A stretch of 64,000 bases of DNA from Ilex aquifolium. Lineage: Eukaryota; Streptophyta; Magnoliopsida; Aquifoliales; Aquifoliaceae. Numbering within the stretch: the stretch's first letter is position 1; each line of letters opens with the position of its first letter. Shown piece after piece: positions 2,271-59,964 of this stretch. A program made the translations under genes and the position numbers. The DNA lies in the NCBI GenBank assembly GCA_951799425.1, contig OX637394.1, positions 48,797,142-48,861,141 of the forward strand, given 5' to 3'. A model generated the notes under the pieces. The model did no database searches, was not told the DNA's origin, and saw only the letters and a list, made by a program, of their open reading frames with translations.

Positions 2271-3237
2271 GAAAATAAACTGCGCGCTTTGTATTGAGGC
2301 TTAAACTTTTGGGTTCGACTTGTAGTTTGTATCTAATTGTGCATAAGCCGAGATTCTAACAGTTGTTGGTTCTCTCTGGCTTATTGCTCTCTACGAATCC
2401 AAAATGTAGGCATCAATTGGTCATCTTCTCATACAAGAAGCCGCCATGTTCCAACAAAGAAGTGGTCGGACTCAAGTACCTAAGCCATATATGTGAGTAA
2501 TGCTCCAAACGTCAACTGTTTTCACACTGCAAATTCCTTAATTTTTTGAAAACCAGTTAAGCAATGGGACCTGGTACAATGCATGTTAATGTCCAAATCC
2601 GGAGCAGCAACTTGTTTTACGCCTCACATGACGATCTTGCCACCATCTGCAATACACCAACTAATACAATGTTCATGTGTTTAAACCTTCAAAGTTTTCA
2701 TTGTTTTTTTTTTTTTTAAAATTCAATATTGATCATCCACAGGGATGGAAGAGAAGAAAAAGAATTGAAGGAGCATATTTGAACAGGGTTGTTGAAGATT
2801 TCAAATTTTAAGGTTGGGGGCGGCCCAACATAAACGGGGCTGGCGAAAATTAATATATTGCATATTTAATTGATTTAAAAATTATTTTTCTTATTTTTTA
2901 AAATACCAAAATATTGATCAAATTTTTATACTCAAGTTTTGTCAATAAATTTTTTTCAATAGATTATAGTTAATCCATTCAATTTTTCTTATGACCTAGT
3001 TGGTTGTAAATAAGATTTTATTAATTTAAATTTTGAATAGCTTCTTTCTATTGAAGTGACTATTATTAACAAAATTTTATAAGTAATGCATGTATTAAGG
3101 AAAAAAAATTTAGTCTTTTTATGTAGTTTAGTATTTCATTGGAATGTTAGTTTCAATTTTTTAATTTTTTTTTAAAACTTTTAATTTTGAAAATAAAATT
3201 AAACCATCAATATCAATACATGCATCATAAACAAGGA
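2271..3237. other. Intergenic DNA without recognisable genes
   Basis: It contains the second half of the segment shared with 17009-17110 (about 2405-2510), a poly-T run near 2704-2718 and A/T-rich sequence. It ends at ATAAACAAGGA (3227-3237), the left target duplication of the large element that follows. Confidence 0.5.
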
Positions 3238-3295
3238 GTTGGCTTCAGTACCGAAAAGGTAAAAATCGGTACGATACCGAAAAATTAAAACAACT
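3238..3295 (+). repeat. Left terminal inverted repeat of the 9.3 kb element
   Basis: It contains two AGTACCGA/GATACCGA-type boxes and ends in an A-rich run. It pairs with the sequence at about 12500-12552, allowing small indels. Confidence 0.6.
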
Positions 3296-3359
3296 GACTG
3301 CTCGCCACGTGTACACTCCAAAATTCACAAAAACCTATAACCGGTTTCACCGGTTTCGG

Positions 3360-3900
3360 TATATATTTTAAAGAATTTAAAATGATAATTATTCCCTCAT
3401 ATTTAAACATGAAATAAAAATATAAGAAAAAATTTAAAAGTTATTGAGTGAACATGAACATAAACCCCTATACACTTTAAAAATAAGTGATAATATAAAT
3501 TAAAATAATAATTATTTATTATATTTAAACATGAAATAAAAATATAACAAAAAATTTACAATAGTTAGGCTTATTGAGTGAACAGGAACATGAACCCCTA
3601 TACACTTTAAAAAATTTAAATATGAACCCCTATACACTTTAAAAATAAGTGATAATAGAAATTAAAATGATAATTATTTATTATATTTAAACATGAAATA
3701 AAAATATAACAAAAAATTTACGATAGTTGGGCTTATTGAGTGAACATGAACATGAACCCCTATACACTTTAAAAAATTTAAACATGAATCCCATATACAC
3801 TTTGAAAATAAGTGATAATAGAAATTAAAATGATAATTATTTATTATATTTAAAAATAAAATTAAAATATAACAAAAAATTTACAATAGTTGGGCTTATT
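3360..3900. repeat. Tandem repeat, about 130 bp period
   Basis: The motif AACCCCTATACACTTT recurs near 3463, 3593, 3624 and 3754, with a degenerate copy near 3786. Spacing alternates between about 130 bp and a 31 bp partial duplication. Flanking TTATATTTAAACATGAAAT blocks repeat in phase. Non-coding. Confidence 0.7.
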
Positions 3901-4129
3901 GGATGAATTTAATAAAATGAAATTTTATTGGATTAGTTTAATAAAATGAATTTTTATTGGATGTTAATTGAATGAATTAAATGTTAATTGAATGATTATG
4001 GATATAAATTAGATGAATTTAATATTAATTAAGTTCAATTTTAATGCTAATTTGATGAATTGAATGTTTTAATGTAATATTAATTTGTTATGTTAATTAA
4101 ATATATTAATTTTGATTGCTGCTGCGATG

Positions 4130-4436
4130 ATCCGTTGATACCACTTGATCGCTATTGCATCGATCGGTATGAAGCTCTTTGATCGCTACCTTGATCTGAT
4201 CGCAATAGTGCACTTGATCCCACTTGATCGCTAGTCTTGATGGCAAGAGTGCACTTGATCCCAATCTTGATTGCTACTTGATGCTAGTATAGCCAGAGTG
4301 CACTTGATCCCAATCTTGATCGATCCACTCTTAATTGCTAGTCTTGATCGCAACAGTGCACTTGATCCCAATCTTGATCGATCCACTCTTGATCGATCGC
4401 TACTCTTGACCGCACTTGATCACAACTTTTTTGTTA
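4130..4436 (+). repeat. CTTGATCG-rich tandem array (array C, left)
   Basis: Repeats built on GTGCACTTGATCCCAATC and CTTGATCGATCCACTC, with GTGCACTTGATC at about 4208, 4249, 4298 and 4357. The same unit with a regular 57-58 bp period occurs at 10119-10400, and its reverse complement at 4736-5010. Confidence 0.75.
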
Positions 4437-4725
4437 TGAGTATCATTTTTTTGGTTAACATTACCACTGTTTTGATTAAGAGTATCACTTTTTTGGTTAA
4501 CATTACCATTTTTTTTGGTTAAGAGTACTATTTTTTTGGTTAACATTACCACTATATTGGTTAAGAGTACTACTGTTTTGGTTAACATTACCACTATTTT
4601 GGTTAAGAGTACCATTTTTTTGGTTAACATTACCACTGTTTTAGTTAAGAGTACCATTTTTTTGGTCAAGAGTACCATTTTTTTTGTTAACATTACCACT
4701 TTTTTTTGTTAATATTACCATTTTT
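4437..4725 (+). repeat. GGTTAACATTACCACT tandem array (array B, left)
   Basis: Alternating 21 bp monomers, one with TTAACATTACCAC and one with TTAAGAGTACCA, form a dimer of about 42 bp (GTTAACA at 4454, 4496, 4539, 4581 and 4623). The reverse complement of the same dimer fills 10520-11990. Open frames here encode only heptapeptide repeats, because 21 is divisible by 3. Confidence 0.8.
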
Positions 4726-4735
4726 TGGAGCAATC

Positions 4736-5010
4736 AAGACTAGCAATCGAATTGAATTTAGCAATCAAGAGGGATGGAGCGATCAAGAATAGCAATCGAA
4801 TTGAATTTAGCAATCAAGAGGGGTGGAGGGATGGAGCGATCAAGAATAGCAATCGAATTGAATTTAGCAATCAAAAGGGATGAAGCGATCAAGAGGGATC
4901 AAGTAGCGATCAAGAGAGATCAAGTAGTGATCAAGGGGAATCAAGTAGCAATCAAGTGAGATCAAATGGGATCCCAACTAGCGATCAAGTGGGATCAAGT
5001 AGCGATCAAT
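4736..5010 (-). repeat. GATCAAG-rich array (array C, inverted copy)
   Basis: A unit of about 57 bp (ATGGAGCGATCAAGAATAGC at 4774 and 4831) decays into shorter GATCAAGTAGC units. It is the reverse complement of the CTTGATC arrays at 4130-4436 and 10119-10400. Confidence 0.7.
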
Positions 5011-5029
5011 TGTGGTAATTTATAATTAA

Positions 5030-7393
5030 CATTTTTTTTATAATTAACATTAAAATCATCAAATTAACAATAAATTTCAATTAATTAATATTAAATTCAT
5101 CCAATTTATATCCAAAATCATTCAATTAACATTCCATTTATTTGGACGAAATTACATGTTAATTTAATTTCATCCAATTAAAATTTAATTTATCAAATTA
5201 ACACCAAATTAACATTCAATTCATCAAATTAACACCAAATTAACACTCAATTTCATCTAATTAACATTCAATTTTTTTCTAATAAGCATTTAATTCACTA
5301 AATTAACATTCAAATACAACTAGTTAACATTAAGTTAATCAAATAAACTTTTAATTTCATTCAATTAACACAAAATTCATCAAATTAACATTCAAATTAT
5401 CAAATTAACAGTCAGATTTATCAAGTAGCAATTCAATTTAATCAAATTAACATGTAATTTCATCAAATCAACACCAAATTAACATGTAATTTCATCCAAA
5501 TAAAATTTAATTTATCAAATTAAAACCAAATTAATACTCAATTCGTCAAATTAACACAAAAATAACACTTAATTTCATCTAATTAACATTCAATTTTTTC
5601 TAATAAGCATTTAATTCACTAAATTAACATTCAAAATTAACTAGTTAACATTAAATTAATCAAATAAGCTTTAAATTTCATTCAATTAACAATCAATTCA
5701 TCAAATTAACATTTAAACTATCAAATTAACATTCAGATTTATCAAATTGACATTTAGTTTCATCAAATTAACATGTAATTTCATCAAATCAACTCCAAAT
5801 TAACATATAATTTTAACCAATTAAAATTTAATATATCAAATCAACACCAAATTAATAATTAATTATCATCTAATTAACATTCAGTTTTTTCTAATAAGCA
5901 TTTAATTAACTAAATTAACATTCAAATTCAACTACTTAACATTAAATTAATCAAATAAACTTTCAATTTCATTCAATTAATACTCAATTCGTCAAATTAT
6001 CATTGAAATTATCAAATTGACATTCAGATTTATCAAATTGATATTCAATTTCATTAAATTAACATGTAATTTATCAAACCAACACCAAATTAACATCTAA
6101 TATCATCCAATTAAAATTTAATTTAACAAATTAACAATTAATTTCATCTAATTAACATTTAATTTTTTCTGATAAGCATTTAATTCACTAAATTAACATT
6201 CAAATTCAACTAGTGAACATTAAATTAATCAAATAGACTTTCAATTTCATTCAATTAACACTCAATTTCATCAAATTAACATACAAATTATCAAATTAAC
6301 AATCAAATTTATCAAATTGACATTCAATTTCATCAAATTAACATGTAATTTCATCAAATCGACTTACAATTTCATTAAATTAACATTCGATTTATCAAAT
6401 TGACATTCAATTTATGAAATGGACTTTCAATTTCATCAAAGTAACATGTAATTTCATCAAATCGACTTTCAATTTCATTAAATTTACATTCGATTTATCA
6501 AATTGACATTCAATTTCATCAAATTAACATTCAATTTCATCAAATTAACATGTAATTTCATCAAATCGACTTTCAATTTCATTAAATTAACATTCGATTT
6601 ATCAAATTGACATTCAATTTCATCAAATTAACATTCAATTTATGAAATGGACTTTCAATTTCATCAAAGTAACATGTAATTTCATCAAATCGACTTTCAA
6701 TTTCATTAAATTTACATTCGATTTATCAAATTGACATTCAATTTCATCAAATTAACATTCAATTGATTAAATTGACATTCAATTTCATCAAATTAACATT
6801 CAATTTCATCAAATTAACATGTCATTTCATCAAATCGACTTTCAATTTCATTAAATTAACATTCGATTTATCAAATTGACATTCAATTTCATCAAATTAA
6901 CATTCAATTTATCAAATTGACATTCAATTTATCAAATTGACATTCAATTTATCAAATTAAAATGTAATTTCATTAAATCGACTTCCAATTTCATTAAATT
7001 AACATTCGATTTATCAAATTGACATTCAATTTCATCAAATTAACATTCAATTTATCAAATGAAAATTCAATTTCATCAAATTAACATGTAATTTCATGAA
7101 ATCGACTTTCAATTTCATGAAATTAACATTCGATTTATCAAATTGACATTCAATTTCATCAAATTAACATTCAATTTATTAAATTGACATTCAATTTCAT
7201 CAAAGTAACATGTAATTTCATCAAATCGACTTTCAATTTCATTAAATTAACATTCGATTTATCAAATTGACATTCAATTTCATCAAATTAACATTCAATT
7301 TGTTAAATTGACATTCAATTTCATCAAATTAACATGTAATTTCATCAAATCGACTTTCAATTTCATTAAATTAACATTCGATTTATCAAATTG
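5030..7393 (+). repeat. 21 bp satellite array, left arm (array A)
   Basis: Monomers of 20-21 bp, such as CATCAAATTAACATTCAATTT and CATCAAATCGACTTTCAATTT, repeat throughout. From about 6300 rightward they form a higher-order unit of about six monomers (about 124 bp). The outer part (5030-6200) is more diverged. The arm is the reverse complement of 7394-10118. Confidence 0.85.
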
Positions 7394-10118
7394 AATGTTA
7401 ATTTAATAATTTAAATGTTAATTTCATGAATTTAGTGGTAATTGAACGAAATTGAAAGTTTATTTGAGTAATTTAATGTTAACTTGTTGAATTTGAATGT
7501 TAATTTAGCGAGTTAAATGCTTATTATAAAAAATTGAATGTTAACTAGAAGAAATTGAGTTTTAATTTGGTGTTAAATCAGTGAATTAAATATTAATTTG
7601 ATGAATTGAATGTTAATTTGGTTTTAATTTGATAAATTAAATTTTATTTAGATTAAATTACCTGTTAATTTGGTGCTGATTTGATGAAATTGAATGTCAA
7701 TTTGATAAATCTGATTGTTAATTTGATAATTTGAATATTAATTTGATGAAATTGAGTGTTAATTGAATGAAATTGAAAGTCTATTTGATTAATTTAATGT
7801 TAACTAGTTGAATTTGAATGTTAATTTAGTGAATTAAATGTTTGTCAGAAAAAATTAAATGTTAATTAGATGAAATTAATTGTTAATTTACTGTTTATTT
7901 GTTAAATTGAATTTTAATTGGATGAAATTAACATGTCAATTTGATAAATTGAATGTTAATTTGATGATATTAAATGTCAATTTGATAAATCGAATGTTAA
8001 TTTAATGAAATTGAAAGTCGATTTGATGAAATTACATGTTAATTTGATGAAATTGAATGTTAATTTGAAGAAATTGAATGTCAATTTAATCAATTGAATG
8101 GTAATTTGAAAAAATTGAATGTCAATTTGATAAATCGAATGTTAATTTAATGAAATTGAAAGTCGATTTGATGAAATTGAATATCCATTTCATAAATTGA
8201 ATGTTAATTTGATGAAATTGAATGTCAATTCGATAAATCGAATGTTAATTTAATGAAATTGAAAGTGGATTTGATGAAATTACATGTTAATTTGATGAAA
8301 TTGAATGTCAATTTGATAAATTGAATGTTAATTTGATGAAATTTAATGTCAATTTAGTAAATCGAATGTTAATTTAATGAAATTGAAAGTCGATTTGATG
8401 AAATTACATGTTAATTTGATGAAATTGAATGTCAATTTAACAAATTGAATGTTAATTTGATGAAATTGAATGTCAATTTTATAAATCGAATGTTAATTTA
8501 ATGAAATTGAAAGTCGATTTGATGAAATTACATGTTAATTTGATGAAATTGAATGTCCATTTAAGAAATTGAATGTTAATTTGATGAAATTGAATGTCAA
8601 TTTGATAAATCGAATGTTAATTTAATTAAATTGAAAGTCGATTTGATGAAATTACATGTTAATTTGATGAAATTGAATATTCATTTGATAAATTGAATGT
8701 TAATTCGATGAAATTGAACGTTATTTTGATAAACCGAATGTTAATTTAATGAAATTGAAAGTCGATTTGATGAAATTACATGTTAATTTGATGAAATCGA
8801 TTGTTAATTTGATGAAATTGAATGTCAATTTGATAAATCGATTGTTAATTTAATGAAATTGAAAGTCAATTTGATAAATCGAATGTTAATTTAATGAAAT
8901 TGAAAGTCGATTTGATGAAATTACATGTTAATTTGATGAAATTGAATGTTAATTTGATGAAATTGAATGTCAATTTAATCAATGGAATGTTAATTTGATG
9001 AAATTGAATGTCAATTTGATAAATCGAATGTAAATTTAATGAAATTGAAAGTCGATTTGATGAAATTACATGTTACTTTGATGAAATTGAAAGTCCATTT
9101 CATAAATTGAATGTTAATTTGATGAAATTGAATGTCAATTTGGTAAATCGAATGTTAATTTAATAAAATTGAAAGTCGATTTGATGAAATTACATGTTAA
9201 TTTGATGAAATTGAATGTCAATTTGATAAATTTAATTGTTAATTTGATAATTTGTATGTTAATTTGATGAAATTGAGTGTTAATTGAATGAAATTGAAAG
9301 TCTATTTGATTAATTTAATGTTAACTAGTTGAATTTGAATGTTAATTTAGTGAATTAAATGCTTATCAGAAAAAATTAAATGTTAATTAGATGAAATTAA
9401 TTGTTAATTTGGTGTTAATTTGTTAAATTAAATTTTAATTGGATGAAATTACATGTTAATTTGATGTTGGTTTGATAAATTACATGTTAATTTAATAAAA
9501 TTGAATGTCAATTTGATAAATCTGAATGTCAATTTGATAATTTCAATGATAATTTGACGAATTGAGTATTAATTGAATGAAATTGAAAGTTTATTTGATT
9601 AATTTAATGTTAAGTAGTTGAATTTGAATGTTAATTTAGTTAATTAAATGCTTATTAGAAAAAACTGAATGTTAATTAGATGATAATTAATTATTAATTT
9701 GGTGTTGATTTGATATATATAATTTTAATTGGTTAAAATTATATGTTAATTTGGAGTTGATTTGATGAAATTACATGTTAATTTGATGAAACTGAATGTC
9801 AATTTGATAAATATGAATGTTAATTTGATAGTTTAAATGTTAATTTGATGAATTGAGTGTTAATTGAATGAAATTTAAAGCTTATTTGATTAATTTAATG
9901 TTAACTAGTTAATTTTGAATGTTAATTTAGTGAATTAAATACTTATTAGAAAAAATTGAATGTTAATTAGATGAAATTAAGTGTTATTTTTGTGTTAATT
10001 TGACGAATTGAGTATTAATTTGGTTTTAATTTGATAAATTAAATTTTATTTGGATGAAATTACATGTTAATTTGGTGTTGATTTGATGAAATTACATGTT
10101 AATTTGATTAAATTGAAT
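7394..10118 (-). repeat. 21 bp satellite array, right arm (array A inverted)
   Basis: Monomers are the reverse complement of the left arm, for example AAATTGAATGTTAATTTGATG. The marker GAAAGTCGATTTGATG recurs at about 8384, 8508, 8634 and 8757 (period 121-126), then with two longer spacings. The axis lies near 7370-7405, where AAATTAACATTC and GAATGTTAATTT face each other across about 13 bases. Confidence 0.85.
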
Positions 10119-10515
10119 TGCTCCCAATCTTGATCGATCCAGTCTTAATTGCTAGTCTTGATCGCAAGAGTGTACTTGATCCCAATCTTGATCGATCCAC
10201 TCTAGATTGCTAGTCTTGATCGCAAGAGTGCACTTGATCCCAATCTTGATCGATCCAGTCTTGATTGCTAGTCTTGATCGCAAGAGTGCACTTGATCCCA
10301 ATCTTGATCGATCCAGTCTAGATTGCTAGTCTTGATCGCAAGAGTGCATGATCCCAATCTTGATCGCTACTCTTGATCGCAAACTGCACTTTATACCACT
10401 CTTGATCGCCACTATTGATCGCTACTCGATCCCGATCGCTACTCAGCTCTTGATCGATCGAATCGTGATTCAATCGCAATTCTTGATCGCTAAAAGCAAT
10501 TGATCGATCAAAAAA
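10119..10515 (+). repeat. CTTGATCG array (array C, right)
   Basis: Four regular units of about 58 bp carry AGTGCACTTGATCCCAATC (GTGCACTT-type positions about 10170, 10228, 10286 and 10343), then degenerate CTTGATCGCTACT units. Confidence 0.75.
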
Positions 10516-11990
10516 AGTGGTAATATTCACCAAAAAAGTGGTAATATTAACCAAAAAAGTAGTAATTTCAACTTAAACAGTGGTAATGTTAACCAAAAAA
10601 GTGGTACTCTTAACCAAAACAGTGGTAATGTTAACCATTAAACTGGTAATATTATCCAAATCAGTGGTACTCTTAACCAAAATAGTGGTAATGTTAACCA
10701 AAAAAGTGGTACTATTAACCAAGACGGTGGTAATGTTAGCAAACAAAATGGTAATCTTAATCATTTGAATTGTAATTTTAACCAAACAAGTGGTACTCTT
10801 AACCAAATAAGTGTAACCTTAACCAAAAAAAGTTGTAATCTTAACCAAAGAAATGGTAATGTTAACCAAAAAAGTAGTAATTTCAACTTAAACAGTGGTA
10901 ATGTTAACCAAAAAAGTGGTACTCTTAACCAAAACAGTGGTAATGTTAACCATTAAACTGATAATATTATCCAAATCAGTGGTACTCTTAACCAATATAG
11001 TGGTAATGTTAACCAAAAAAGTGGTACTATTAACCAAAACAGTGGTAATGTTAGCAAAAAAAGTGGTAATCTTAATCATTTGAATTGTAATTTTAACCAA
11101 ACAAGTGGTACTCTTAACCAAATAAGTGTAACCTTAACCAAAAAAAGTTGTAATCTTAACCAAAGAAATGGTAATGTTAACCAAAAAAGTAGTAATTTCA
11201 ACTTAAACAGTGGTAATGTTAACCAAAAAAGTGGTACTCTTAACCAAAACAGTGGTAATATTAACCATTAAACTGGTAATATTATCCAAATCAGTGGTAC
11301 TCTTAACCAAAATAGTGGTAATATTAACCAAAAAAGTGGTACTATTAACCAAAACAGTGGTAATTTTAGCAAAAAAAAAATGGTAATCTTGACAAAAAAA
11401 ATGGTAATATTTAACCAAAATAGTAGTACTCTTAATCAAAATAGTGGTAATGTTAACAAAAAAGTGGTACTCTTAACCAAAAAAGTTGTACTCTTAAACA
11501 AAAAGTGAAATTTTAACCAAAAAAGTGGTAATCTTAACTTAAACAGTGATAATGTTAACCAAAAAAGTGGTACTGTTAACTAAAATAGTGGTAATGTTAA
11601 CCAAAAAAGTGGTACTCTAAATCAAAACAGTGGTAATATTAACCAAAAAAATGGTACTCTTAACAAAAAAGTTGTAATCTTAACATAAAAAGTGGTAATG
11701 TTAACCCAAAAAGTGTTAATCTTAACTTAAACAGTGGTAATGTTAACCAAAAAAGTGGTATTCTTAACCAAAATAGTGGTAATGTTAACCAAAAAAGTGG
11801 TATCTTAATCAAAATAGTGGTAATATTAACCAAAAATGTGATACTCTTAACCAAAAAAGTTGTAATATTAACCAAAAAAATGGTACTCTTAACCAAAACA
11901 GTAGTAATGTTAACAAAAAAGGTCGTAATAATGTTAACAAAAAAAGTGGTATCCTGGTAATTTTAACCAACAAAAGTAGTACTCTTACTA
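10516..11990 (-). repeat. 21 bp array with 315 bp higher-order unit (array B inverted)
   Basis: Monomers such as AAAAAGTGGTAATGTTAACCA are the reverse complement of the 4437-4725 array. Between about 10550 and 11400 they form a higher-order repeat of 315 bp (15 x 21): matching points fall at 10580 and 10895, at 10765 and 11080, and at 10888 and 11203. The distal part (11400-11990) is less regular. Confidence 0.85.
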
Positions 11991-12420
11991 TAATCTCAAC
12001 ATTAGTTTTAATAAATGATGATGATTTTATAATCTCTTGAATGGTTCATGCGGATAAAAATAATTCTGCAACTCCATCTTCTTCTTTCTCCTTCTTCTTC
12101 GTTTGAGTTTTTTTTTTTTAATAAATTTACTATAATATTAATCTTTGTTTTAATAAATGATGATTTTATAATCTCTTGAACGATTCATAGGATAAAAACA
12201 ATTATGCAACGATATTTCTCCTTCTTCTTCCCTATCTGATTTTTTTTTTTTTGAATTTTTTTTTTTTTTATGAAAAGACTATGGCTTAATCTTAGTTTTA
12301 ATAAATGATGATACTTTTATAATCTGTTGAAGCATTTACAGGATAAAAACAATTATGCAACTCCATCTTCTTCTTCGACTGTGTTTTTTTTTTTTTTTTT
12401 TTATGAAAGCGTAAGGCTCA
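11991..12420 (+). repeat. Three-copy tandem repeat, about 145 bp
   Basis: TTTTAATAAATGATGAT recurs near 12008, 12149 and 12296. Each copy continues into TTTATAATCT-TTGAA, GGATAAAAA-AATT-TGCAAC and a CTTCTTC tract followed by poly-T. Non-coding. Confidence 0.7.
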
Positions 12421-12494
12421 GTGGAGTGGGTAGCCGGTAAAAAGTGTTAGATTTGATCAACGGTCAAAATTCTTCGTTATATATCAACCGTTCA

Positions 12495-12552
12495 TTTTAT
12501 TTTTTCGGTACCGTACCGAAAAGTGAATATCGGTACTGTAGTCGAACCCAAC
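12495..12552 (-). repeat. Right terminal inverted repeat of the 9.3 kb element
   Basis: It includes TTTTTCGGTACCGTACCGAAAA and ends in CGAACCCAAC. It is followed at 12553 by ATAAACAAAGT, the right target duplication. Confidence 0.6.
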
Positions 12553-12563
12553 ATAAACAAAGT

Positions 12564-17110: not shown

Positions 17111-17339
17111 CTCCCAACTTGAAAAATGTAAACACGACCAGATCATTAGTATACTTTAATTATGAATAAAATAGTGGCTCAAAGTTGATAGAAAAAATGT
17201 TGGTTATCCTATTTAAAATTCAAACGTTCTGTTCCACTAATAAACTTGGTTACAAAACATTTAGGATAATTAGGACTCAATGACTTAAAAGTTTATGCAA
17301 TGTACTTTTTGACAAATAAGTAGTATATGGTATACCTCT

Positions 17340-18326
17340 TGACAATTTTCCCTTTTTAAATTTGGTTTGAGCTTGGGCTAAAAAACTTTAACTCGAATTG
17401 AATTCAGACCATACTCGAGTGAAGCTTGGGTTTATGGGTTCAACTTACACTAGGCCCGAATTACTAAAATTAGGCTCAACTTGAATATACAATTCGGGAT
17501 CAACCCAAATTAAAATATATATACATATACATACACAAATTTTAAGTGTATTTTAGGGTTTTATTGAATTTATTTTAAATCTAGGTTAGTCAAACTATTA
17601 TGTCATTTCTAAAATTAAGTCTAAAATTAACTTAGGTAATATTCGGGTTGGAAGTCGAGCTCAAGTTGGGTTAAAATTGAAAGTTTTACAATTGGAGTTG
17701 GACTTGAGTTGATCCTCTAACCCACTTAACCTAGCCGAGTTGCACCCCTAAGCAGGGGCGTGGGACTAAGCCTCTCTAAATGGCACGTTCCGGTCTATTA
17801 GCTCCAAAGCTCACCGAACTTTGGTCGGGCTATTTTGGCAATTTCCCTGGGCATGCCATGGATTGGACTTGTGTCCCGTTAGCCTATCTTGACCCGGCCT
17901 AGGAAGCTTTACCATCAGACAACAGTTTGCAAACTTGAAGGGTGGCAACCCCACGGTTGGGCTTAAGATTTTTCAAAGAATACTTGGCTTAAATTCAAAC
18001 ATGATTCTTGTAAAAAAAATTAATAGTAAGAGTTGCAATACTGCACACACCGAAGTGATGAGCACTGAGGTTTCAACATGATTTTACAATTTGGATACTC
18101 ATCTTCATCCATGTAGAGAGGATTTATAACACGTGCATGCAAGATTGAGAACCCGCGTAAGAAGATTTTTCCCCTTCTTATGATTATTGTTTTATCCATT
18201 AAACAGAAATAAAATGAAATTGGAAATATTTTTTCTCCTATTTCATTATTATTACAAAGGCAGGATTAGACACTATTAACGCAAAAAAAAATTTACATTA
18301 TTTTCACAAACAAAGATTAAGGATTT
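17340..18326. other. 3' flank of TPS relic A2 with repeat-derived sequence
   Basis: No gene. 17340-17750 has repeated words (CGAGT, TTGGGTT, GAGTTG) like those of small hAT-type elements. 17755-18050 is homologous to the 3' flank of gene B (TAAGCCTCTCTAA, CAAATTCAAACA-GATTCTTGTAAAA), so the relic and gene B share downstream DNA. Confidence 0.5.
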
Positions 18327-19227
18327 TTATTCAGGCACAAAATCGACAAGAAGTGAGGTAACATAGGTTTTAAAGCTAGTTTTGGAATTTGTATACCCAT
18401 CTTCATCCTTGTAGAGAAGATCTATGATGCGCACAAGATTGAGAACCCGTGTAACTAGAGGCATTCTTGGTTTATATCCTCCCATGAATTTGTAACTTAT
18501 TTGTCAAACTCAGCATATGCTCTTGTTTTGAGGCTCCATGTTGTTTCATGTAACACTCTGTTTTGAGGCTCCATGTTTTTTCATGTAACACTCCATAGCT
18601 GATGCTACGTCTCCTCTCTCTTGCTCAAGCTACAATTATCGAAGAAACCTAAAATTTAGTGAGATGAAAAATAAGAAAAAGAAAAAATAATTCATAATGA
18701 GATGAATTGTTCAACGGTTACAACCCAAATCTCAGTCACACATCGATTAAACTCGAGTTTTATACGGTCAAGACGTACATGTTTTTAAAGCAAGATATTT
18801 CTACTTCTCTTTCTTACCTCATGTCCTACCATGTCGTCCATGAGTCTACCAATTACGGCTGACGCTCTAACAATCAAAGGTTCACTGGAAACCCAATCAA
18901 AGGCCTCCTTGGTTACCAATTTTCCCATGCCAACAAAGGAAGTGGTGGAAAGCATCACGTAACCACTGGAAACTAGAGTGACTTTCATTTACTCCTCCAT
19001 TGTTGGAGTATAGCCCTCATTAAACCACTTGGCCTCTTGAAAGCTTACTCTGATTAATTTTTTCATCTGAAACATGGAAAAAAAGAAAAAATATATTGTT
19101 ACTTTGTCCATCCGTCTAAAGATAGTTTTTTTCCTCGTAAACTAATTAATAACTGGAAAGTATAAGAGTACTTACTACTTCTTTAGCTTAGTTGACGCAG
19201 TATGTTTTGCCTTCCTTGACCATATCA
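18327..19227 (-). pseudogene. Truncated terpene synthase, exons 5 (part) to 7 (copy A2)
   Basis: Exon 6 (18818-19066) matches gene B but has a stop (18989-18991) where EEYM is expected. It retains LMDDMVGHE, the NSE/DTE-type metal-binding motif. The exon 5 remnant (19176-19227) encodes KEGKTYCVN-stop-AKEV and breaks off upstream. Exon 7 (18327-18629) has a short tandem duplication (CTCCATGTT-TTTCATGTAACACTC twice) and a deletion between two AGGCATT repeats. Exons 1-4 are missing. Clearly nonfunctional. Confidence 0.9.
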
Positions 19228-20145
19228 AAATATATATAGTATATGTATAGGGTAAATTTATGGAACCGAATAAGTATTTTCTTGTATCACATCCAAAGTT
19301 GATGCTTATTAAAGATTAGAGTACGAGTCCCTAAATTGACCTATTTAATTCATAACCCGACTCGAAATAGATTATAACTCTAATTTACCTGCACATTTAG
19401 ATACAATGCCTTAGTGATACACAAGTTTATTTCATATAATCAACACCTCTAAGATAGAAAACAGTGGGTGACTATGGCATAGACAGATAAGACAGACCAA
19501 GAAAGAACATCTTTTAGACAGAGAGAGAGAATTTAGAGAGAGAATCGGATGATGTACCTATCATGCAGCCATCAAAAAACAAAGCCTGGACCAATCCAAC
19601 CTTGTACTTTTGTCCACATAGTAAACTTTTGTGGCTTGAGAACCTTTATGGCTTTGGCCAGAAGATAAATATTGGCATTAAATTTTAACAAGTTTGTGGC
19701 TTAAAGTCAAGGGGTGTGGGCTGTATGTGAATGGCTTAATGATGCACAGTTCAGATCAAATTTGCTCAGATTTGATTCTTTGTCCATTTCCTCACCGAAT
19801 TGCGTTCAAGCATCCGAAAATCACTTCAGAGTGTTATCAGAGCTTGAAGTTTTCAAATAGAGTTAAGTGATATTTCAGTATCAATTTGAGTATTATCAGA
19901 TCTATAAGAGATATCAGAGTGATCCTCTTTTGTTGGAGTGAATACTTGTGAGGTTTGACATAACTATCTTGTACTCCTGTTTTACTCCATAGTGAAAACA
20001 TCTAAGCATTATTGTCGTGGACGTAGGCAATAGTTGAATCATGTAAATTGATTTGTCTTGTGTGATTGTTCTTTTATTTTTCTACTTGAGTGTGAGTGTC
20101 AATATCAATTCAAATTCGATTCCAAGGATATTTTCGACAATAAAT
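19228..20145. other. Flank and probable truncated 5' LTR of the copia element
   Basis: The end of this stretch (about 19980-20145) has copia U5-like sequence (GTGGACGTAGGCAATAG-TGAATCATGTAAATTG) directly before the primer-binding site. No clear LTR start was found, and it does not match the sequence after the polypurine tract near 24197. Confidence 0.4.
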
Positions 20146-20158
20146 TGGTATCAGAACC
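20146..20158 (+). promoter_or_regulatory. Copia primer-binding site
   Basis: TGGTATCAGAACC here and TGGTATCAAAGCC in the second copy (42527) give the consensus TGGTATCAGAGCC, the usual initiator tRNA-Met site of plant copia elements. Confidence 0.75.
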
Positions 20159-20281
20159 AATACTGATTTTGAGTACTATTCACGGTTATTATTCATTGGG
20201 TACTATTTAAATAGTACTATTTAAGTAATAGTAATCGTATGCACCAGTTTCTTGGACCTCACCAGATTAAGTTTTAAACTC

Positions 20282-20459
20282 ATGACTACAAATTTTTCAA
20301 AGATCTCGAATGCTAAGTTCGAGGTGGAGAAATTTGATGGAAGAAACAATTTTGGGTTTTGGCAATTTCAAGTTAAAGATGTCCTAATCCAACAGGGACT
20401 ACACAAAGTATTAGAGGGTAAACCTAAAGATACAGAGGCTCACTCGCAAAGCAATAGTG
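20282..20459 (+). pseudogene. Copia gag N-terminus (truncated)
   Basis: The frame MTTNFSKISNAKFEVEKFDG then FWQFQVKDVLIQQGLHKVL is the typical gag N-terminus of plant copia elements. It is interrupted after about 60 residues by the MULE fragment. An upstream in-frame ATG exists at 20252, but the family usually starts close to 20282. Confidence 0.75.
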
Positions 20460-21775
20460 ATATTTGTTACAATTGATGAAATTCTGTATGGTTGCACATT
20501 AGAATGAGGAAGGCCACTTGATAGGGATAATGTCTTGGCAGGGGATGGTGACCTTGAGAGGGATAATGTATATGGTTTGAGCTCAGAGGATAATGACTAT
20601 GGGGATGACAGTAATGCACATGAAGTCCAAATCCATCTAATTTTTTTATTAGAGGAAATGGCCTCCCTGCACTTGGTGATCCTTTTGATCCTCCACCTTT
20701 GAGAAGGCTACCAGGAAGACCAAAGAAAAATAGGAGGGAAGCTGATGAGACAAATACTAGGACTAGTATTGCTAGAAAAAACTTGATTGTTAAATGTGCC
20801 ATGTGCAAAGAGTATGGGCACAATAAGAGGACATGTCAAAGGGCACCTGTGAGGGACAGAGGGAGCACAAGCAATGAGACATAATTGGTACAGTATTCCT
20901 GCTATTTGGATAAACATTTACTAATTTCTGTTACATGAGTTGCTTCTCATACTATTAATTTTGATAAGGGAAGTGGTACTCTAGAACCACCAGCACAAAC
21001 ATCGCAGGCAACCCAAGCACCACTTAACAGTGAAGCAAGACAAACAAGTGTTGTAACTACTAGCCCAGTCAGCACAGGCAACACAGTTGCATCAAATGTA
21101 AGGAAAGGTAGAGGGAGATGCAAAGGTAGAAAGGGAGTGGACCCTACATAGGATTGAAGCTGTAGAAAGAAACTAACCATAAGATAAAAAGTTTTTGTAT
21201 ATGGGGATTACTGGGATGCTGCTGCTTTTGTTTTTGTTGCACCAGCATACAAGAATGCACATAAGATAGTTTTGGGGGGTTTTTGTTAACTGGTATTCGG
21301 GCAATATGTTGCTGCTTTTGTTTTTTCTGTTGCAGCAATGTATTATGTATGTTGTTGATGCTTTTTTGTTTTTTGCTACAGCAGCAAGAATGCACATAGG
21401 GTTCTTGCATTTTTTTGTCTTAACAGATGTACTGGAACTTTATTATGGTATGGGAATGAAGAATAGTAGAAAAGTTTGTTATAATACTATGGTATGTCAA
21501 GTAGAACAGTTGTAGAAATCATGCTAATTATTGCATTCTATTGGACCAAACATTACAAGATCACACAGTGAATGGAATTAGTACATGATAAACTAATACA
21601 TTGTTGAACCAAAAATTACAAGAACACACAATGTTTAGAACACATTGTTCGACCAAAAATTAGCAAACCCAATCCAACAACCATTCATAGATAAACTAAT
21701 ACATTAACATAACATTAGCAAGGCATCAACAACCAATCGCTTATTCTTGCTCATTGACACAATTGTAACAAATAT
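20460..21775 (+). mobile_element. MuDR-like (MULE) fragment inside copia
   Basis: It is bounded by a perfect 16 bp inverted repeat, ATATTTGTTACAATTG (20460-20475) and CAATTGTAACAAATAT (21760-21775). Inside is the C-terminal part of a MuDR-family transposase. The flanking bases do not form a matching 9 bp target duplication, so one side may have been deleted. The same insert, 1320 bp, is at 42832-44151. Confidence 0.65.
20640..21155 (+). pseudogene. MULE transposase C-terminus with zinc knuckle
   Basis: The frame reads DPFDPPPLRRLPGRPKKNRR, then CAMCKEYGHNKRTC, a CX2CX4HX4C zinc knuckle typical of MuDR transposases. A likely intron (20886-20968, GTACAG to GATAAG) leads into GSGTLEPPAQTSQ ... 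GRGRCKGRKGVDPT-stop, a usual low-complexity tail. A TAA stop at the end of the first exon (ET-stop) is absent in the second copy. The MULE catalytic domain is missing. Confidence 0.7.
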
Positions 21776-23107
21776 AAGACCCAACTCATAGCAAAAGGGT
21801 ATACCCAAATGAGGGTATAGATTATGAAGATACATTCTCCCCTGTGGTGAGATTTACTGCTATTTGTGTGATTCTAGCCATAGTAACTCATTTGGATTTA
21901 GGGCTTTATCAGATGGATGTCAACATTACATTCATCAATGGAGGACTAGATCGGATTTATAGCTGAGGGGCAGGATAGCAAAGTGTGCATCCTTAAACGA
22001 TCCATTTATGGTCTCAAATAGTCATCTAGACAATTGTACCTCTAGTTTCATGCAACAATTATGACATTGGCTTATCTATGATAGAGAAAGACCATTATGT
22101 GTATGTCAAACATATAGGGAAGGGAATTTAGATCCTATATCTATATAAGGATGACATTTTATTCGCTGGAAACGATATAGAGATGATCAATGCCACTAAA
22201 GAGTGGTTATCCTCTACTTTTGAGATGAAGTATATAGTTGAGACGAATTATGTACTCGGAGTTGAGATGCTAAGGGATCGTTCTAAAAGGTTTCTTGGTT
22301 TGTCACAAGAAACCTATATCAAGAAAATTTTAGAACAATTCTGGATGCACTATTCAAAACCCGTTGATACCCCAGTTGAGAAGGGCCGAATTTAAGCCTT
22401 GATCATTATCCTCGATCAAATGAGGAGAAGGAAATCATGAAGAGGGTCCCTTATGCGAGTGCAATAGGGAGTTTAATGTATGCTATGTTGTGTACTCGTC
22501 TTGATATTTGTTATGCGGTTGGCTTGGTAAGTCGTTACCAAAGTAACCTAGGACCAGTTCAGTGGCAGGCTGTTAAGAGAATTTTTCGTTACCTTCGTGG
22601 TACCACAGATCTCGTCCTATGCTATTATGGTGGGGACTTGAGATTGAGAGGATTCTGTGATGCAGATTTGGGTGGCGATAGAGATGAACGCAAATCACCT
22701 CGGATTATGCGTTCACCCTTGGAGGAGGAGTTGTTTCTCGGTGTAACAAGAAACAAGATTGCCTTGCTACTATGGACTCTAAGTATATCACCTGTTTAGC
22801 AGTAGTTCAAGAGGCAGTTTGATTGAGGAGATTCATTCAGCGATTAAGGATTGTGGCCCACGTTGATGACGATGTTGAGATTTGATCCGATAGCATGGCT
22901 GCATTATCATATGCAAAGGATCCTAAATATCATGGCAGGACCAAGCATATTGATATACAATTTCACTACATTCGAGACATGGTTAGGCAAGGAGAGGTGG
23001 CTCTAAAGCATATCTCCACTAGCAGAATGGTAGTTGATCTATTCACTAACATTGCTGGAGGTATCTTCCAAACTCATGTCAGAAGTTTGGGGACACGTAG
23101 GATTTGA
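21776..23107 (+). pseudogene. Copia reverse transcriptase and RNase H, broken
   Basis: The pieces include [17 protein letters not shown] (near 21815, spanning a frameshift), DDILFAGND, YVLGVEMLRDRSKRFLGLSQ, SAIGSLMYAMLCTR, the RNase H signature FCDADLGGDRDERKS, and AALSYAKDPKYHGRTKHID. Several frameshifts and stops occur, and a deletion of about 30 bp near 21950 is absent in copy 2. Nonfunctional. Confidence 0.85.
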
Positions 23108-24186
23108 TTTGCTTTGGATAATATGATGGATATATGGATATTTATATTTCATGCATTTATCGTTTTATCTCCTACTTGTGGTTGCATGAATGATACTATT
23201 TTTACTGAGGCACATAATTGTAATAATGTCACCATGTTGAGATCAGGCCATTCACACGGGTGATCACCTTGGTGCTAAGATAGGATGAGACAAAGTGATC
23301 ATATTGGTGCTTGTATAATGAGCTTATGATGGCCTATATGCATGAGTTACATAATAGGCATTAATGATTGATAATGTTGTCGCCTCGGTTTCGGACTGAG
23401 ATGAGACTTGAGTAAGTCGATTGTGGAATGCCTCCACGATGCCATATAAAACCTAAGTAGAGCCGAATGTGAGCGCTCAAGAAGCGTGTGGAGAGCGGCT
23501 GGCCGAGAGTAGCTCAGGTTAGAAGCCTACATGGCAACTAGACCCAGATTTGTACGGTGTTTGAGAGTGACAGGTCCCATTTAGTGGGAGCTCCACCGTA
23601 GCAAACATATCATACTATAGGTGCTATAGTTGACCAAATATGGGAGTGATAAGATTGATACCCTCTATGTCACTGTGTGAGTCCTAAAATTCACTATACC
23701 TTTAGACCTAGAGCTATGTCATGCAGTCGAGGTTCGAAATAACTACTTTAGCATGTCACCCAAGATCATGATAGATACGGTCACATGGGACATGTCTAGG
23801 AAAGTGCACGAATCAAAATGGATTGATATGAGATTCTAGGGAAGGTGCTTTTAGATCACACCTAGTTTGGTAGTTCATTGCTCGGGCTATTATTGCACTT
23901 AGCTGCGTAAAATAATCATGAACACAAATATGAAAAGTCGAGTATTACTCTGAGACGAGTCTCAAGAGGGATAGAGGATACTTGATTTGTGTGATTTAAG
24001 GTATCTAGGGTATGGAAGATAACTCGTCGATGACGTGCTATGTTAGTTAGATGGTGGTTTAATATAGCACTCCTACTACATGTGATTTCGTCAGTTCGCA
24101 CGCTCCATTACTTGTATGAGGACAGTGAAATGTTTACAAGAGATTTAAAGAAAGTATGTAAGGAAAATGGGATAACTAATGTGAAC
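23108..24186. other. Non-coding 3' region of the copia element
   Basis: About 1.1 kb between the RNase H end and the polypurine tract with no open frame of note. It is conserved in copy 2 (45530-49571), where it is split by two LTR insertions. Confidence 0.5.
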
Positions 24187-24196
24187 AAGTGGGAGA

Positions 24197-24700
24197 TGTA
24201 ATCTTGACCCGATTAAGAGGCCGAGTTAACTCAGTGTCCTCAAGGTTATTAGAAACCTAATGGGGTGAGGCTCTTCTCCTTTATCCTAATCTATCTATAA
24301 GTTGAGATAACCATTAGTGGGGATTAGGATAGGATTTGAATCCTCATCAAACTCTCTTCTATATATAGAATGAGAGTTATACAAAAAATATATAAGTAAA
24401 ATTGGAAACTTTCTCTCTCTAAGAATCACCATCTCAATGGATTCCTTGGTTTTATAAGTGTGGATGCTAAGAGGACTCTGATAGTCCTCTTTTCGGCAGA
24501 TTATCAAGCTTGTAGACACCAAGCCATGAGAATACAAGCAAGATTCATAAAATAAATCGATTTAATCCATTTCCGCGCATTAATAGGTAACTCGTGTGTA
24601 CTCTCTATTTCCAAGACACCAAATTGGATTTTAGTTGGATACCAAAAAACTGTCAGGCGGTTTAGCCACTTTGAACATGTGAAAAATTGCACTATCCATA
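24197..24700 (+). mobile_element. Presumed 3' LTR of copia copy 1
   Basis: It begins TGTAATCTTGACCCG directly after AAGTGGGAGA, as expected for a polypurine tract and LTR start. It contains a TATATATAG promoter-like stretch and TCTCTCTC. The corresponding sequence in copy 2 begins at 49582. The 5' side near 20.1 kb does not resemble it, so the LTR pair is not demonstrated. Confidence 0.45.
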
Positions 24701-25244
24701 GTCCCTACCAGTTTGGTCATCATACATGAAGCTCTGTCATGATTATTTTTTGTTGGCACTCAGAAACACAACCTGTTTCCTCCCACGCAAGGGAGTGGGA
24801 TTAAGCCTCTCTAATCAAAGCATATTTGGCTCAAATTCAAACACGATTCTTGTAAAAAATTAATAGTAAACTTCAACACTCATCTCATCTGCACATGCCA
24901 CTCCTACTTGCACATCTAAATAGACAGTACAATCATAACTAGTGATTTACTTTTTTGTTTTTTGAAAGGTGAAAAAAAAACATATAACTCCAGATTTTTT
25001 ATACCACGATATGCATGGATACAGATTTTTATTCATGAGAGAATCATCATATCGAGAGGGGCGTATGGGAGAAACGTTAATTTTCACTTCTCATACTAGC
25101 ATAGAAGTCTATTAAACAGAAATAAGATGAAAATTTTAATACTTTTTCTCCTATTTCATTATTATTACAAAGGCAGGATTACACACTATTAGAACACAGG
25201 GAAAACAAAAGTTACATTATTTTCACACACAAGAATTAAGGATT
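24701..25244. other. 3' flank of gene B
   Basis: No gene. The sequence is shared with the 3' flanks of copy C (50100-50541) and gene D (59257-59916), starting around GATTATTTTTTGT-GGCACTCAG. This is the left limit of the DNA common to the three complete TPS units. Confidence 0.6.
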
Positions 25245-25250
25245 TTTATT
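25245..25250 (-). terminator. Polyadenylation signal, gene B
   Basis: AATAAA on the minus strand, about 49 nt after the stop codon. It is conserved in copies C (50542-50547) and D (59917-59922). Confidence 0.6.
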
Positions 25251-25298
25251 CAGTAGAACTAGAATCATCATATGGAGGACAGGAGAAAATTTTCACTG

Positions 25299-28200
25299 TC
25301 ATTTTGTCACGGAATCAACAAGAAGTAAGGTTACATACGTTTTAAACTTGGTTTTGGAATTTTTATACGCATCTTCATCCTTGTAGAGAAGATTTATGAC
25401 CCGCGCAAGATTGAGAACCCGCATTAGAAAAGGCATCGGGACAGCGGTTGGATGGAGGCATTCTTGGTTTATATCCTTCCATGCATTTGTAACTTGTTTG
25501 TCAAACTCAGCATACGCCTCTTGCTTTGAGGCACCGTGTTGTTTGATGTAACATTCCACAGCTGATGCTACGTGTCCTCTCTCTTGCTCATGCTACAAAA
25601 TGTAAAAGAACCATAAAGTTTAGTCAGCAGAAAACCAAGAATTAGTACAAAATAATTAGGAAAAAGAAGGTGTTTTTTTGGTAATGGAGAATTGTTTTAG
25701 GGCTGCAACACAAAATCGGTGCACATATTTTTACAATTATTCACTTATCCAAGCATACCTAATCTTTTTGATAACTTCAATCAATAGTCCTATTTTTATT
25801 GGACTTAACTATGGTATCGACAAAAAAAAATTTAGTACGGTATATCTAGAATTTATTATTTTAATGTGTATTTTTATAATTTTTGTGGTTATTCTATAAT
25901 AAAAAAATTTATCACTTTTATATGTGTATTTTACCACTGTTGTGATAACTATTTTTACCACTTTTTTCGGTTAAAAAAATTATAATTTTTGGGTTGGATT
26001 TATTACATTTATGAGTGTTTTTACTGAATAAAAATAAAAATAATCACAATAGTGATAAAAGTATTCACAAATGTGATGAATAAATGTATGATACTATTTT
26101 TTTTTCGATACCATAAACAACTCCATTTCTATTACTCGTGGTAATCATTCGTTGCATTTATGAATTTGTGCTGGGAAATTATAAAGTCTAATTAAAGCCT
26201 AGAGAATAAGAGAGCAAAATAATCTTTGCACGTTGGTGGGAGAGGGATAACGAAGTTTAAACCCACGTTGCTTTTCTTCAACGACGAGAACGGTGAGCAT
26301 AGGTTATCTGCTATCCTCAACAGTCTTTGCACTTGGTGGCTCCAAAACTTTAAAGCACTTGGCAAAACGACATCTTTGCTGTCGTATTGTGATGGGGCTA
26401 TAATTTCAATTGGCACATGATCATTTCCCAAGTCCAGCTAGTTGCAGTTCAAATTTTCCGAGGGCCACTAGCTTTGTGGTTGGGCTGGGCTGCGCTGGGC
26501 ATAATTGGGGCTTACCATGACAAGCTCATAGAGCAATGTCCAAAGTCAAAGCTAGTCTCCAAAATCAAACAAAAAAAAGAAAAAGAAAAATAGGTTTTTT
26601 TATTTGTTATAATATTATTTAAACCTAATATGTTGATCTAATTTAATAGGACACCCCTACTCATATATATCAATTAAATCTGGGTTTTATGCAAATAGGA
26701 GATTGGAACTTATGACAAGTAGGTTTTTGCAATAAGATATTTCAAACTTCTCTTTCTTACCTCGTGTCCTACCATGTCGTCCATGAGTCTACAAATCACG
26801 GATGAAGCTCTAACAATCAAAGGTTCACTGGAAACCCAATCAAAGACCTCCTTGGTTGCCAGTTCTCCCATGCCAACAAAGGAAGTGGTGGAAAGCATCA
26901 TGTAAGCACCGGAAACCAGTGCCACCTCCATATACTCCTCCGTTGTTGGAACATAGCCTTCATTAAGCCACTTGGCCTCTTGAAAGAATGCTCTAATTAA
27001 TTTTTTCATCTGAAACATGGAAAAAAGAAAAAGAAGAAGAAGAAGAAGAAGAAGAAGATGTTAGTTTGTCCATCAGTCTAAAAATAGGTTTTTTTTTTGC
27101 AAATAACGTAATAACTGTTAAGTGTAAAAGTACTTACTGCTTCTTTTGCATAGTTGACACAATATGTTTTGCCTTTCTCGGCCATCTCTTTCTCCATTTC
27201 ACTATACACATCTAAGAGTGCACGATAACATAATCTCATGTATTCTGGTAGTTGATCTAAAGCACTGATGTCCCACCTGTTACTCATGTAGTGCACATAA
27301 ATAGAGTTACTAATTAGTTCCTATATGTCAATTACAACTCAAAAAAAGCTTGAAAAAGAATGATAAGATCTAAAACTGGGAGTGCTCTATTTGATTAAAT
27401 TGGTTGAATTTGACCTGTCGATTGCATCACTGAAGAGCACAAGTTCTTCGAGGGTCCCATATACATCATAGATGTCATCCACAATGGAAGTCATGTACAT
27501 TAATTTGGTTAATATCTTTCGTGAAATGGAATATTGGGGCTCAAAGTACACTCCCAATGTCCAAAAGTAGATCTCCACCAATCTGTCTCTTGCAAAAGGT
27601 AGTTTTCTCGAAAAGTCTAAATCTTTCCACCACCTAAAACGTAAAAATAAAATAGAATCAATTGTATCAAATCCAAACTCTTCCTTAATCCATATGTTAA
27701 TGGTGATGACAAGCCTCTGACTTTGTCAATAGACCAACCTTGTAATACCACTTAGCTCCTTCTGATGCACTTTCTGCAATAGGTTAAAATCCAGTTTTGC
27801 AAAGTTTAGTACAACTTGATTATGCAAATTGTCTTCTTGGTAAATAGACATGTAATGCCTCGACTCTAGCCTTGTTAAGCAATTGCGGATGGGCCAATGT
27901 AGAGCATGATTTACTTGTTCAGCCAGAGGATTGGTCAAGTGGGGTAACAAGAGCTTGAGGTTGGTGGTAGTAAATGCTAGTGCTTCCTCTAGTATACCTT
28001 CTCCATGCACCCTGAGTTGTGTTGCTTCGTACAAGCTTAACAATCCCTGAATGTTAGTGTTGAGGGATTCCTTGAATTTCCCTTCGTCATCCTTAAACTT
28101 CTTGAACACATCTGTTTTGACAATTGACATCAAAAAATGGTACAAATTGAACCAGTAAAATGACTTTGCATATCAGAGCGCAAAAACGTGTGTTGCACAC

Positions 28201-28867
28201 ATGCATGTTTATTAATTGCTACATATTATTTAGTGTAACCAAGTCCCCCTCCCCCTCCCCCTCTCCCCAAAAAAAAAATTGCATATTGACCAAAAAACAT
28301 CAATCTTGTATAATTATTAATATTTAAAAAAAATATATTATTTAGCCTAACAAAGAAAAAAATTAGATACTTACCACAAGAGACATTATGTCCTTGTTGT
28401 CTAAGCAATCGGAAACGAAGGGCTGAAGTGTAAAGGTCATCGTCATCTTTATTATCACAATTAGTACAACAGTTATAAATGAGTCCTAAAGCTGAATCAA
28501 CCTCAGTATCGAAATGGTAAGACACGCCTAGACACTGGATTGCATCAATCAAGTTCAGTAGCTGGGAAGGCTTATTAGCAACTGCGCCTAGCAGCTTCTT
28601 CACTTCTTCTTTCAGTTGTTGATGTTGTTGCTCCAAATGAGCATCAATTTCCTGCACAAGCAATTAGAACTCATAATCACGAATGCATTATGACTCAAAT
28701 CCGCTAAGAAGGGAAGAATACACAAGAGTTTACGGGCAAATTTATACCATAGAGTCAGGAGCATATGTGAGAAAATGGTCTCCCCAAACGCTAGGATGGT
28801 AATTTGCAGAGCGACGGGTAACATTGGGAACAACATATTGGGTGGCAGCTGAAACATACATTGCCAT
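25299..28867 (-). CDS. Sesquiterpene synthase, TPS-a type (gene B)
   Basis: Seven exons: 28748-28867, 28375-28651, 27739-28111, 27415-27633, 27138-27276, 26761-27009 and 25299-25592. All introns are GT-AG and phases agree, giving 556 residues with no internal stop, normal for TPS-a enzymes. N-terminus MAMYVS, then [15 protein letters not shown]; no plastid transit peptide is apparent, so it is probably cytosolic and uses farnesyl diphosphate. Class I motifs: RDR at 272-274, DDIYD at 309-313, and DDMVGHEHE at 453-461 (NSE/DTE type), which bind the Mg-diphosphate. The product cannot be told from sequence. Intron 2 has a 112 bp insertion and intron 6 a 0.9 kb insertion relative to copy C. Closest relatives are copies C and D in this window. 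The family assignment is firm; activity is inferred. Confidence 0.92.
25725..26659. mobile_element. Composite insertion in intron 6 of gene B
   Basis: It is absent from the corresponding intron of copy C. The right end (GGACACCCCTA followed by CTCATATA) matches the right end of the hAT-like element in gene D. The left end is lost. Near its left side is a separate inverted repeat (TATGGTATCGA-AAAAAAAA near 25812; mirrored TTTTTTTTCGATACCATA near 26100-26117), suggesting a nested MITE. An open frame at 26192-26431 (minus) is not recognised. Confidence 0.5.
28234..28345. mobile_element. 112 bp insertion in intron 2 of gene B
   Basis: The flanks are 11 bp direct repeats ATATTATTTAG (28223-28233 and 28335-28345), which occur once in genes C and D. 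The inserted part is C-rich (CCCCCTCCCC) followed by A-rich sequence. Class unknown. Confidence 0.55.
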
Positions 28868-31180: not shown

Positions 31181-31185
31181 AACTA

Positions 31186-37624: not shown

Positions 37625-37800
37625 TGAATTTCGGCTGGTAGTTTTGAGAAATTCGAAAAAAATGAATTTAAGTGACGATTGAATTCATCAATGACTGAAA
37701 GTAGATAAAAATGAGAATTTCAGCAGGTGATTTTGAGAAATTCGAAAAAGATGAATTTCGGTGAAGATGAAATTCATCAGTGGCTCAAAGTAAATAGAAA
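37625..37800. repeat. Two-copy tandem repeat, about 90 bp
   Basis: TTTTGAGAAATTCGAAAAA-ATGAATTT and GAATTCATCA-TG-CT-AAAGTA occur twice in a row. The second copy runs into the left boundary of duplication block 2. Confidence 0.6.
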
Positions 37801-38340
37801 AAATGTTGGTTATCCTATTTAAAATTCAAACGTTCTGTTCCACTAATAAACTTGGTTACAAAACATTTAGGATAATTAGGACTCAATGACTTAAAAGTTT
37901 AATCAATGTACTTTTTGACAAATAAGTAGTATATTGTATACCTCTTGATAATTTTCTATTTTTAAAACTTGGTTTGAGCTTGGGCTAAAAAACTTTAACT
38001 CTGATTGAATTCTGACCATACTCGAGTGAAGCTTGGGTTTACGAGTTTAATCTGAACTAGGCCCGAATTACTAAAATCGGGTTCAACCCAAATTAAAATA
38101 TATATACATATACATACACAAACTTTAAGTGTATTTTAGGGTTTTATTGAATTTATTTTAAATCTAGATTAGTCTAACAATTATGGCATTTCTAAAATTA
38201 ACTTAGGCAATACTTGGTTTGGAAGTCGTGCTTAGGTTGGGTTAAAATTAAAAGTTTTACAACTTGAGTTGGACTTGAGTTGATCCTCTAACCCACCCAA
38301 CTTAGCCGAGTTGCACACCTAAGCAGGGGTGTGGGACTAA

Positions 38341-59916: not shown

Positions 59917-59922
59917 TTTATT
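59917..59922 (-). terminator. Polyadenylation signal, gene D
   Basis: AATAAA on the minus strand about 45 nt past the stop codon, at the same place as in B and C. Confidence 0.6.
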
Positions 59923-59964
59923 CAGTAGAACTAGAATCATCATATGGAGGATAGGAGAAAATTT

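Follow-up and report, generated by a model that had tools for sequence, protein, structure and literature searches.

A probable Mutator-like foldback transposon with long arms of tandem repeats in the holly genome

The stretch analyzed here, called the window below, is 64,000 nucleotides of the Ilex aquifolium (holly) genome, located at C4:48797142-48861141 (genome 800 Mb, 103 contigs). Within it, window positions 3235-12551 hold a 9317-bp element flanked on both sides by CATAAACAA, which is very probably a non-autonomous foldback transposon of a Mutator-like element (MULE) family in a plant genome. The original prediction, made from the window sequence alone, had proposed a single transposed MULE-like unit composed of satellite DNA, and the recurrence of its termini and of 9-bp target duplications elsewhere in the genome bears out the unit.

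The left terminus (GGAGTTGGCTTC..., 3235-3345, plus strand) begins with GGAGTTGG at 3235. The predicted start, 3238, was close but had to be moved 3 bp outward because GGA precedes GTTGG in other copies too. The right terminus (...GTAGTCGAACCC, 12426-12551, plus strand) has its GAACCC end, which other copies have as well, at 12549, or at 12551 with two extra bases counted. The target-site duplication CATAAACAA occupies 3226-3234 and 12552-12560 and is perfect (9/9), its right copy being offset by 2 bp from GAACCC. Random flanks given equal freedom of offset reached a 9/9 match in 3 of 20,000 trials. The flanking duplication of 9-11 bp in the original prediction is real, but its imperfect 11-bp version was slightly mis-set. 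The best inverted match between the ends is 25 bp long and 92% identical, lies about 31-56 bp in from each end, and has a score equalled by none of 5000 random pairs. Terminal inverted repeats of the kind that marks MULEs are thus present; they are short and, as had been predicted, imperfect.

The genome was searched with the left 93 bp (3238-3330) and the right 121 bp (12432-12552) as queries and the best 40 candidates were scored, so the resulting counts are lower bounds. The left end has at least 39 matches and the right end at least 42; a 20-base right-end motif has 99 matches at up to one mismatch, against 0 for the reversed pattern. A left end was counted as paired if a right end lay within 60 kb on its proper side and shared its strand. 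By this rule 28 of the 39 listed left ends are paired, at distances of 2955-49644 bp, and no pairs were found on the opposite strand or on the wrong side. The concern that no other locus might carry these termini can thus be set aside. The test of the flanks covered 22 of these pairs. The duplication is perfect at 9 bp in 12 of them, the window included, and matches at 8/9 in one more, within the 8-11 bp typical of MULEs. Among 462 mismatched pairings of flanks, none reached 8/9 or better, 4 reached 7/9 and 43 reached 6/9. The perfect duplications include those around a 28.9-kb and a 49.6-kb copy, both with transposase sequence. One copy, C7_6.9M, directly abuts the right end of another family copy (L019 1449-1607), and it may lack a duplication because its insertion adjoins that end.

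As had been predicted, the interior consists largely of tandem arrays, which make up 84% of the element (Tandem Repeats Finder, TRF, score ≥100). Behind the left terminus lies a 162-bp array (3346-3907, plus strand; TRF 162 x 2.7, 94%), which also adjoins the left end in other copies, and a short D-like stretch. There follow, with strands given as signs, an extra left copy of the TTGATCGC-type array B (B+, 4197-4417; from self comparison and layout comparison), a 21-bp GGTTAAGAGTACC-type array C that is inverted relative to the right copy (C-, 4418-4729; TRF and a minus-strand match to the right C array), the left arm of B (B-, 4730-5009; TRF, with a minus-strand match for the 4835-4929 part) and the left arm of the main 21/124-bp array D (D-, 5017-7394). 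The right half comprises the right arm of D (D+, 7395-10118; both D arms from TRF and inverted-repeat comparison), the right arm of B (B+, 10119-10500; TRF 58-bp unit x 4.3), whose genome matches lie mostly near family termini, and a 21-bp AAAAAAGTGGTAATCTTAACC array (C+, 10507-11990; TRF 21 x 68.6) with a higher period of 315 bp (x 4.4). A right subterminal region of about three diverged units of 140-150 bp (11991-12425, plus strand; from self matches), common to other copies, leads to the right terminus.

D- and D+ mirror each other in a palindrome some 5 kb long, centred for the most part on a single axis near 7774; the original prediction had missed it. Its arms are 97% alike over 738 nt (5427-6164 and 9385-10122) and 98% alike over 287 nt (6127-6413 and 9125-9411). 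Compared in 200-bp pieces, the outer arms are 92-100% alike, mostly 97-100%; the best direct matches to the outer-arm region elsewhere in the element are mostly at 85-93%, with two at 96-97%. The B and C parts are mirrored also, with a weaker likeness of about 77-88%. Long inverted arms of tandem repeats, here with D, B and C all mirrored, are as expected of a foldback element, except that they do not reach the very ends: the left 162-bp array and the first B+ have no mirror partner at the right, and so the element behaves as a foldback whose left end is asymmetric. It contains no stop-to-stop frame of 120 aa or longer and no transposase trace at E 1e-5 with an 837-residue family protein as query, in agreement with the predicted absence of a transposase. 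With respect to Pack-MULEs, which carry host gene fragments, the lack of a frame of at least 120 aa applies to the window element and host genes were not compared.

The layout recurs within the family. At 20 left-end loci, of which about 1.6 kb of each element was read, the arrangement of the window (B+ then C- behind the 162-bp array) was found at 5, the window counted; at 7 a short left end is followed at once by the inverted right subterminal region and C-, which makes a fuller foldback, and the remaining 8 show neither layout. Inverted right termini lie on both sides of a D array at C1:51780150-51789343, C12:32820857-32830282 and C12:14196553-14202662; to judge by their coordinates, these three loci would be symmetric foldbacks with two right ends.

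Relatives of the element encode a transposase. Among 11 copies read, the window included (C12, C4_6.1M, C13_25.0M and C17 only in part), four contain FAR1-type MULE transposase sequence at E 1e-5 or better with the same query, and the other seven, the window again included, gave no match at that threshold. The query protein comes from an open 837-codon frame in C12_19.9M, which matches the MULE (PF10551, 6.8e-28), FAR1 (PF03101, 6.5e-23) and SWIM (PF04434, 4.4e-5) models as well as the ZSWIM RNaseH-like and Transposase_mut models. The transposase of Jittery, a maize MULE, is FAR1-like. In C4_6.1M and C13_25.0M this protein is matched over its length at 94-98%, each time split between two frames, and in C9_32.6M the match is limited to residues 538-834. 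Members with the same ends thus include a MULE-domain transposase. C4_6.1M and C13_25.0M measure 49.6 and 28.9 kb between ends, lengths that may include nested insertions in unread parts, and both have 9/9 duplications. Two stretches that they share, 5.2 and 6.5 kb long, are 97.6% and 99.0% alike, respectively, and the left 679 bp of the window element are 97% identical to C13_25.0M. C12_19.9M (L031, L032) combines the open frame with a left arm of foldback type that includes a D- array, which indicates that foldback arms and transposase can share one unit. A further frame, similar in all four transposase-bearing copies, runs opposite to the transposase; tested in C4_6.1M, it matches Transposase_32 (PF20167), a "putative plant transposon protein".

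We considered whether this could be an ordinary satellite array lying between two chance-like ends, with no mobile unit. Such an account would fit the 84% of tandem array and the dispersion of the main repeat, for which a first look gave 2709 candidates in the genome. It is nevertheless extremely improbable given the pairing of 28 of the 39 listed ends and the 12 of 22 perfect duplications against 0 of 462 in the control, and chance ends were rejected on these comparisons. In addition, two copies that are sisters, C3_55.5M and C4_0.5M, share 8.2 kb at 98.8% likeness and stand at different targets, with duplications of 8/9 and 9/9. An assembly artefact was also rejected as unlikely, since the layout of the window recurs at four further loci of the 20 and the published assembly, drIleAqui2.1, is described as PacBio HiFi in the available part of its report (PMC11109700). 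Several observations weigh against a MULE transposon all the same. Six pairs fall outside the flank test (C17, C12, C7_10.1M, C3_28.6M, C19 and C2_54.5M), so that it covers neither the copy with 17 units (C17) nor the bearer of the open 837-codon frame (C12). Of the pairs tested, four match at 7/9, one at 6/9 and four at 5/9 or less; the duplications of the window and of C4_0.5M both require a 2-bp offset at the right; and only a short, imperfect inverted repeat marks the termini.

The likeness of the arms bears on the origin of the palindrome. In a 733-bp arm piece, with gaps left out, the two arms within one copy are 98.4-98.6% alike (window, C2, C3_55.5M and C4_0.5M), and for the same arm in the two sisters the figure is 99.8-99.9%. 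Because the sisters resemble each other in the same arm more than their two arms resemble each other, the arms were not kept alike copy by copy there, and we infer that the palindrome formed before the present copies spread. Arms compared between other copies are 98.0-99.1% alike, which is not decisive; these ranges omit the C12 left arm (86%) and a poor C17 right match (82%). An early single origin is clearly supported by the sister pair only. Against it, the within-copy likeness of the window and C2 (98.5%) is about the same as that between copies (98.1-99.0%), and the stretch of C17 that was read offers no close match for the right D arm (82%). Within-copy gene conversion, instead of inheritance from one inverted duplication, would account for outer arms that are closer to each other than to their best direct matches, but it would have to leave the arms of one copy more alike than arms of different copies. 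They are not, and we therefore rejected it as the main cause of arm likeness and consider it unlikely. A palindrome made in two events has a better, though still less than even, chance: a symmetric foldback with the right end on both sides would have landed in a short MULE derivative, or recombined with it, yielding the junction of left end, B+ and C- seen in the window. The three loci with inverted right termini around D arrays are in line with this, as are the order B+ then C-, which lacks mirror symmetry, and the frequency of the two layouts behind the left end (7 and 5 of 20). On the other side, the symmetric copies are known from coordinates alone, and the five copies with the junction of the window now move as one unit. 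Since it concerns how the palindrome arose, a two-event origin is compatible with a foldback transposon of the MULE family.

For that transposon we propose the following course. The FAR1-type transposase of the relatives would bind the termini as its putative sites and move the element in trans; the repeated 21-bp subterminal sites may serve as extra binding sites, by analogy with Galileo as described in the available part of the report on Tetris, a foldback element of Drosophila virilis (PMC4079207). A second, inverted copy of the right part, arrays C-B-D, would have arisen behind the left end to give the palindrome, before the spread of the present copies. Inverted duplication and array growth perhaps came about by repair after excision or by unequal exchange, and unequal exchange, slippage or post-excision repair could then have changed the length of the arrays in either direction, higher-order repeats included.

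Copies with different array lengths, which the original prediction had led one to look for, do occur. C17 has 17 units of 435-436 bp, whose identity is 99.6% at a lag of three units and 97.0% at lags of one and two, a three-unit higher-order repeat; in the sisters C3_55.5M and C4_0.5M such units are 443-444 bp long and number about 3.4. As the sisters are so alike at different targets, arrays move with the element and their lengths differ between relatives. The near-identity of the C17 units suggests growth rather than loss. A simple account of the arrays is complicated by the lower likeness of C17 to C3_55.5M, which is 92.9% at the left and 84% at the right, and by the want of a closely matching right D arm in C17.

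We asked whether the arrays are satellites in their own right. Of the 41 matches to array B that were considered, 34 have a known terminus no more than 15 kb away. Among the 32 matches of at least 134 bits just one (C14:30202394, 298 bits) is away from a terminus, and the other six matches off termini have 116 bits or less. With 31 of the 32 stronger matches near family termini, array B is a family repeat, and a captured genomic satellite was rejected as its source. Array D is more dispersed. Among clusters from the listed matches, 26 of 34 lie within 15 kb of a known terminus and 8 do not; these eight could either be free arrays or belong to elements whose ends have diverged. One all-plus series of D repeats at C3:55132049-55149846 (18 kb) and 55180203-55182267 has no known terminus within 15 kb and is a candidate free satellite array. 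The family could tentatively be seen as a satellite nursery, in which subterminal repeats grow in mobile palindromes, transpose, and break free as stand-alone arrays, perhaps including C3:55132049-55149846. We hold this release of satellites with much less confidence than the identity of the unit. If true, kilobase arrays with higher-order structure would be carried to new chromosomal sites.

The original prediction judged the unit unusual, but foldback elements of this kind are known. The following comparisons are by description, not by sequence, and draw on the available parts of each report. Tetris, for which membership in Mutator has been suggested, has tandem repeats inside its inverted arms and target duplications of 8-10 bp, compared with 9 bp in the holly family; it resides in an animal, its repeats also make longer satellite-like arrays, for which holly offers candidates only, and its authors found no transposase-bearing copy according to that part of the text, whereas the holly family has such relatives (PMC4079207). 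Tm1 of root-knot nematodes, a Mutator/Foldback family with 9-bp duplications, shares composite and variable inverted repeats and both transposase-bearing and non-coding members, but its transposase resembles the Phantom subclass, where that of holly is FAR1-type and the holly arms consist of kilobase arrays (PMC3169594). Muta1 of Aedes aegypti, a MULE with 8-9 bp duplications, likewise has subterminal tandem repeats, many non-coding derivatives and variable repeat number, within 3198 bp and 145-bp inverted repeats of 12-bp units, compared with kilobases in the holly arms (PMC5225508). Since these three foldback MULEs, or likely ones, have repeats in their arms, the kind is already known. Among plant MULEs, the FARE foldbacks of Arabidopsis, MuTAnT of Medicago and Jittery of maize have foldback structure or long inverted repeats, and MuTAnT measures about 0.2 to over 1.6 kb compared with 9.3 kb in holly (PMC4486113). 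Among the entries listed in searches of open-licence literature there was no plant foldback MULE with satellite arms, and no plant element of this size that combines such arms with transposase-bearing relatives and an internal higher-order repeat; a search for Ilex yielded a single paper, which concerns an oak. Within that literature, the new features are size, array content, transposase-bearing relatives and the higher-order repeat.

The longest Pack-MULE reported in one 2004 study was 7 kb, according to the available part of a review (PMC6431247), a length far exceeded by the members of 28.9 and 49.6 kb, whose 9-bp duplications are perfect. The family bears on the still open question of how satellites reach new chromosomes. 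One genome here holds transposase-bearing members, short derivatives, foldbacks and copies with varied arrays, many with intact duplications. With such members side by side, insertions can be dated and it can be asked whether arrays change at or after transposition.

Elsewhere in the window, tandem duplicated blocks occupy 17173-31181, 37779-54790 and 59706-63464, with main pieces about 87-98% alike. Their minus strand carries frames with the terpene synthase N-terminal domain (PF01397) at 27726-28663, 51952-52371 and 62608-63066, and the first of these blocks starts about 4.6 kb from the element.

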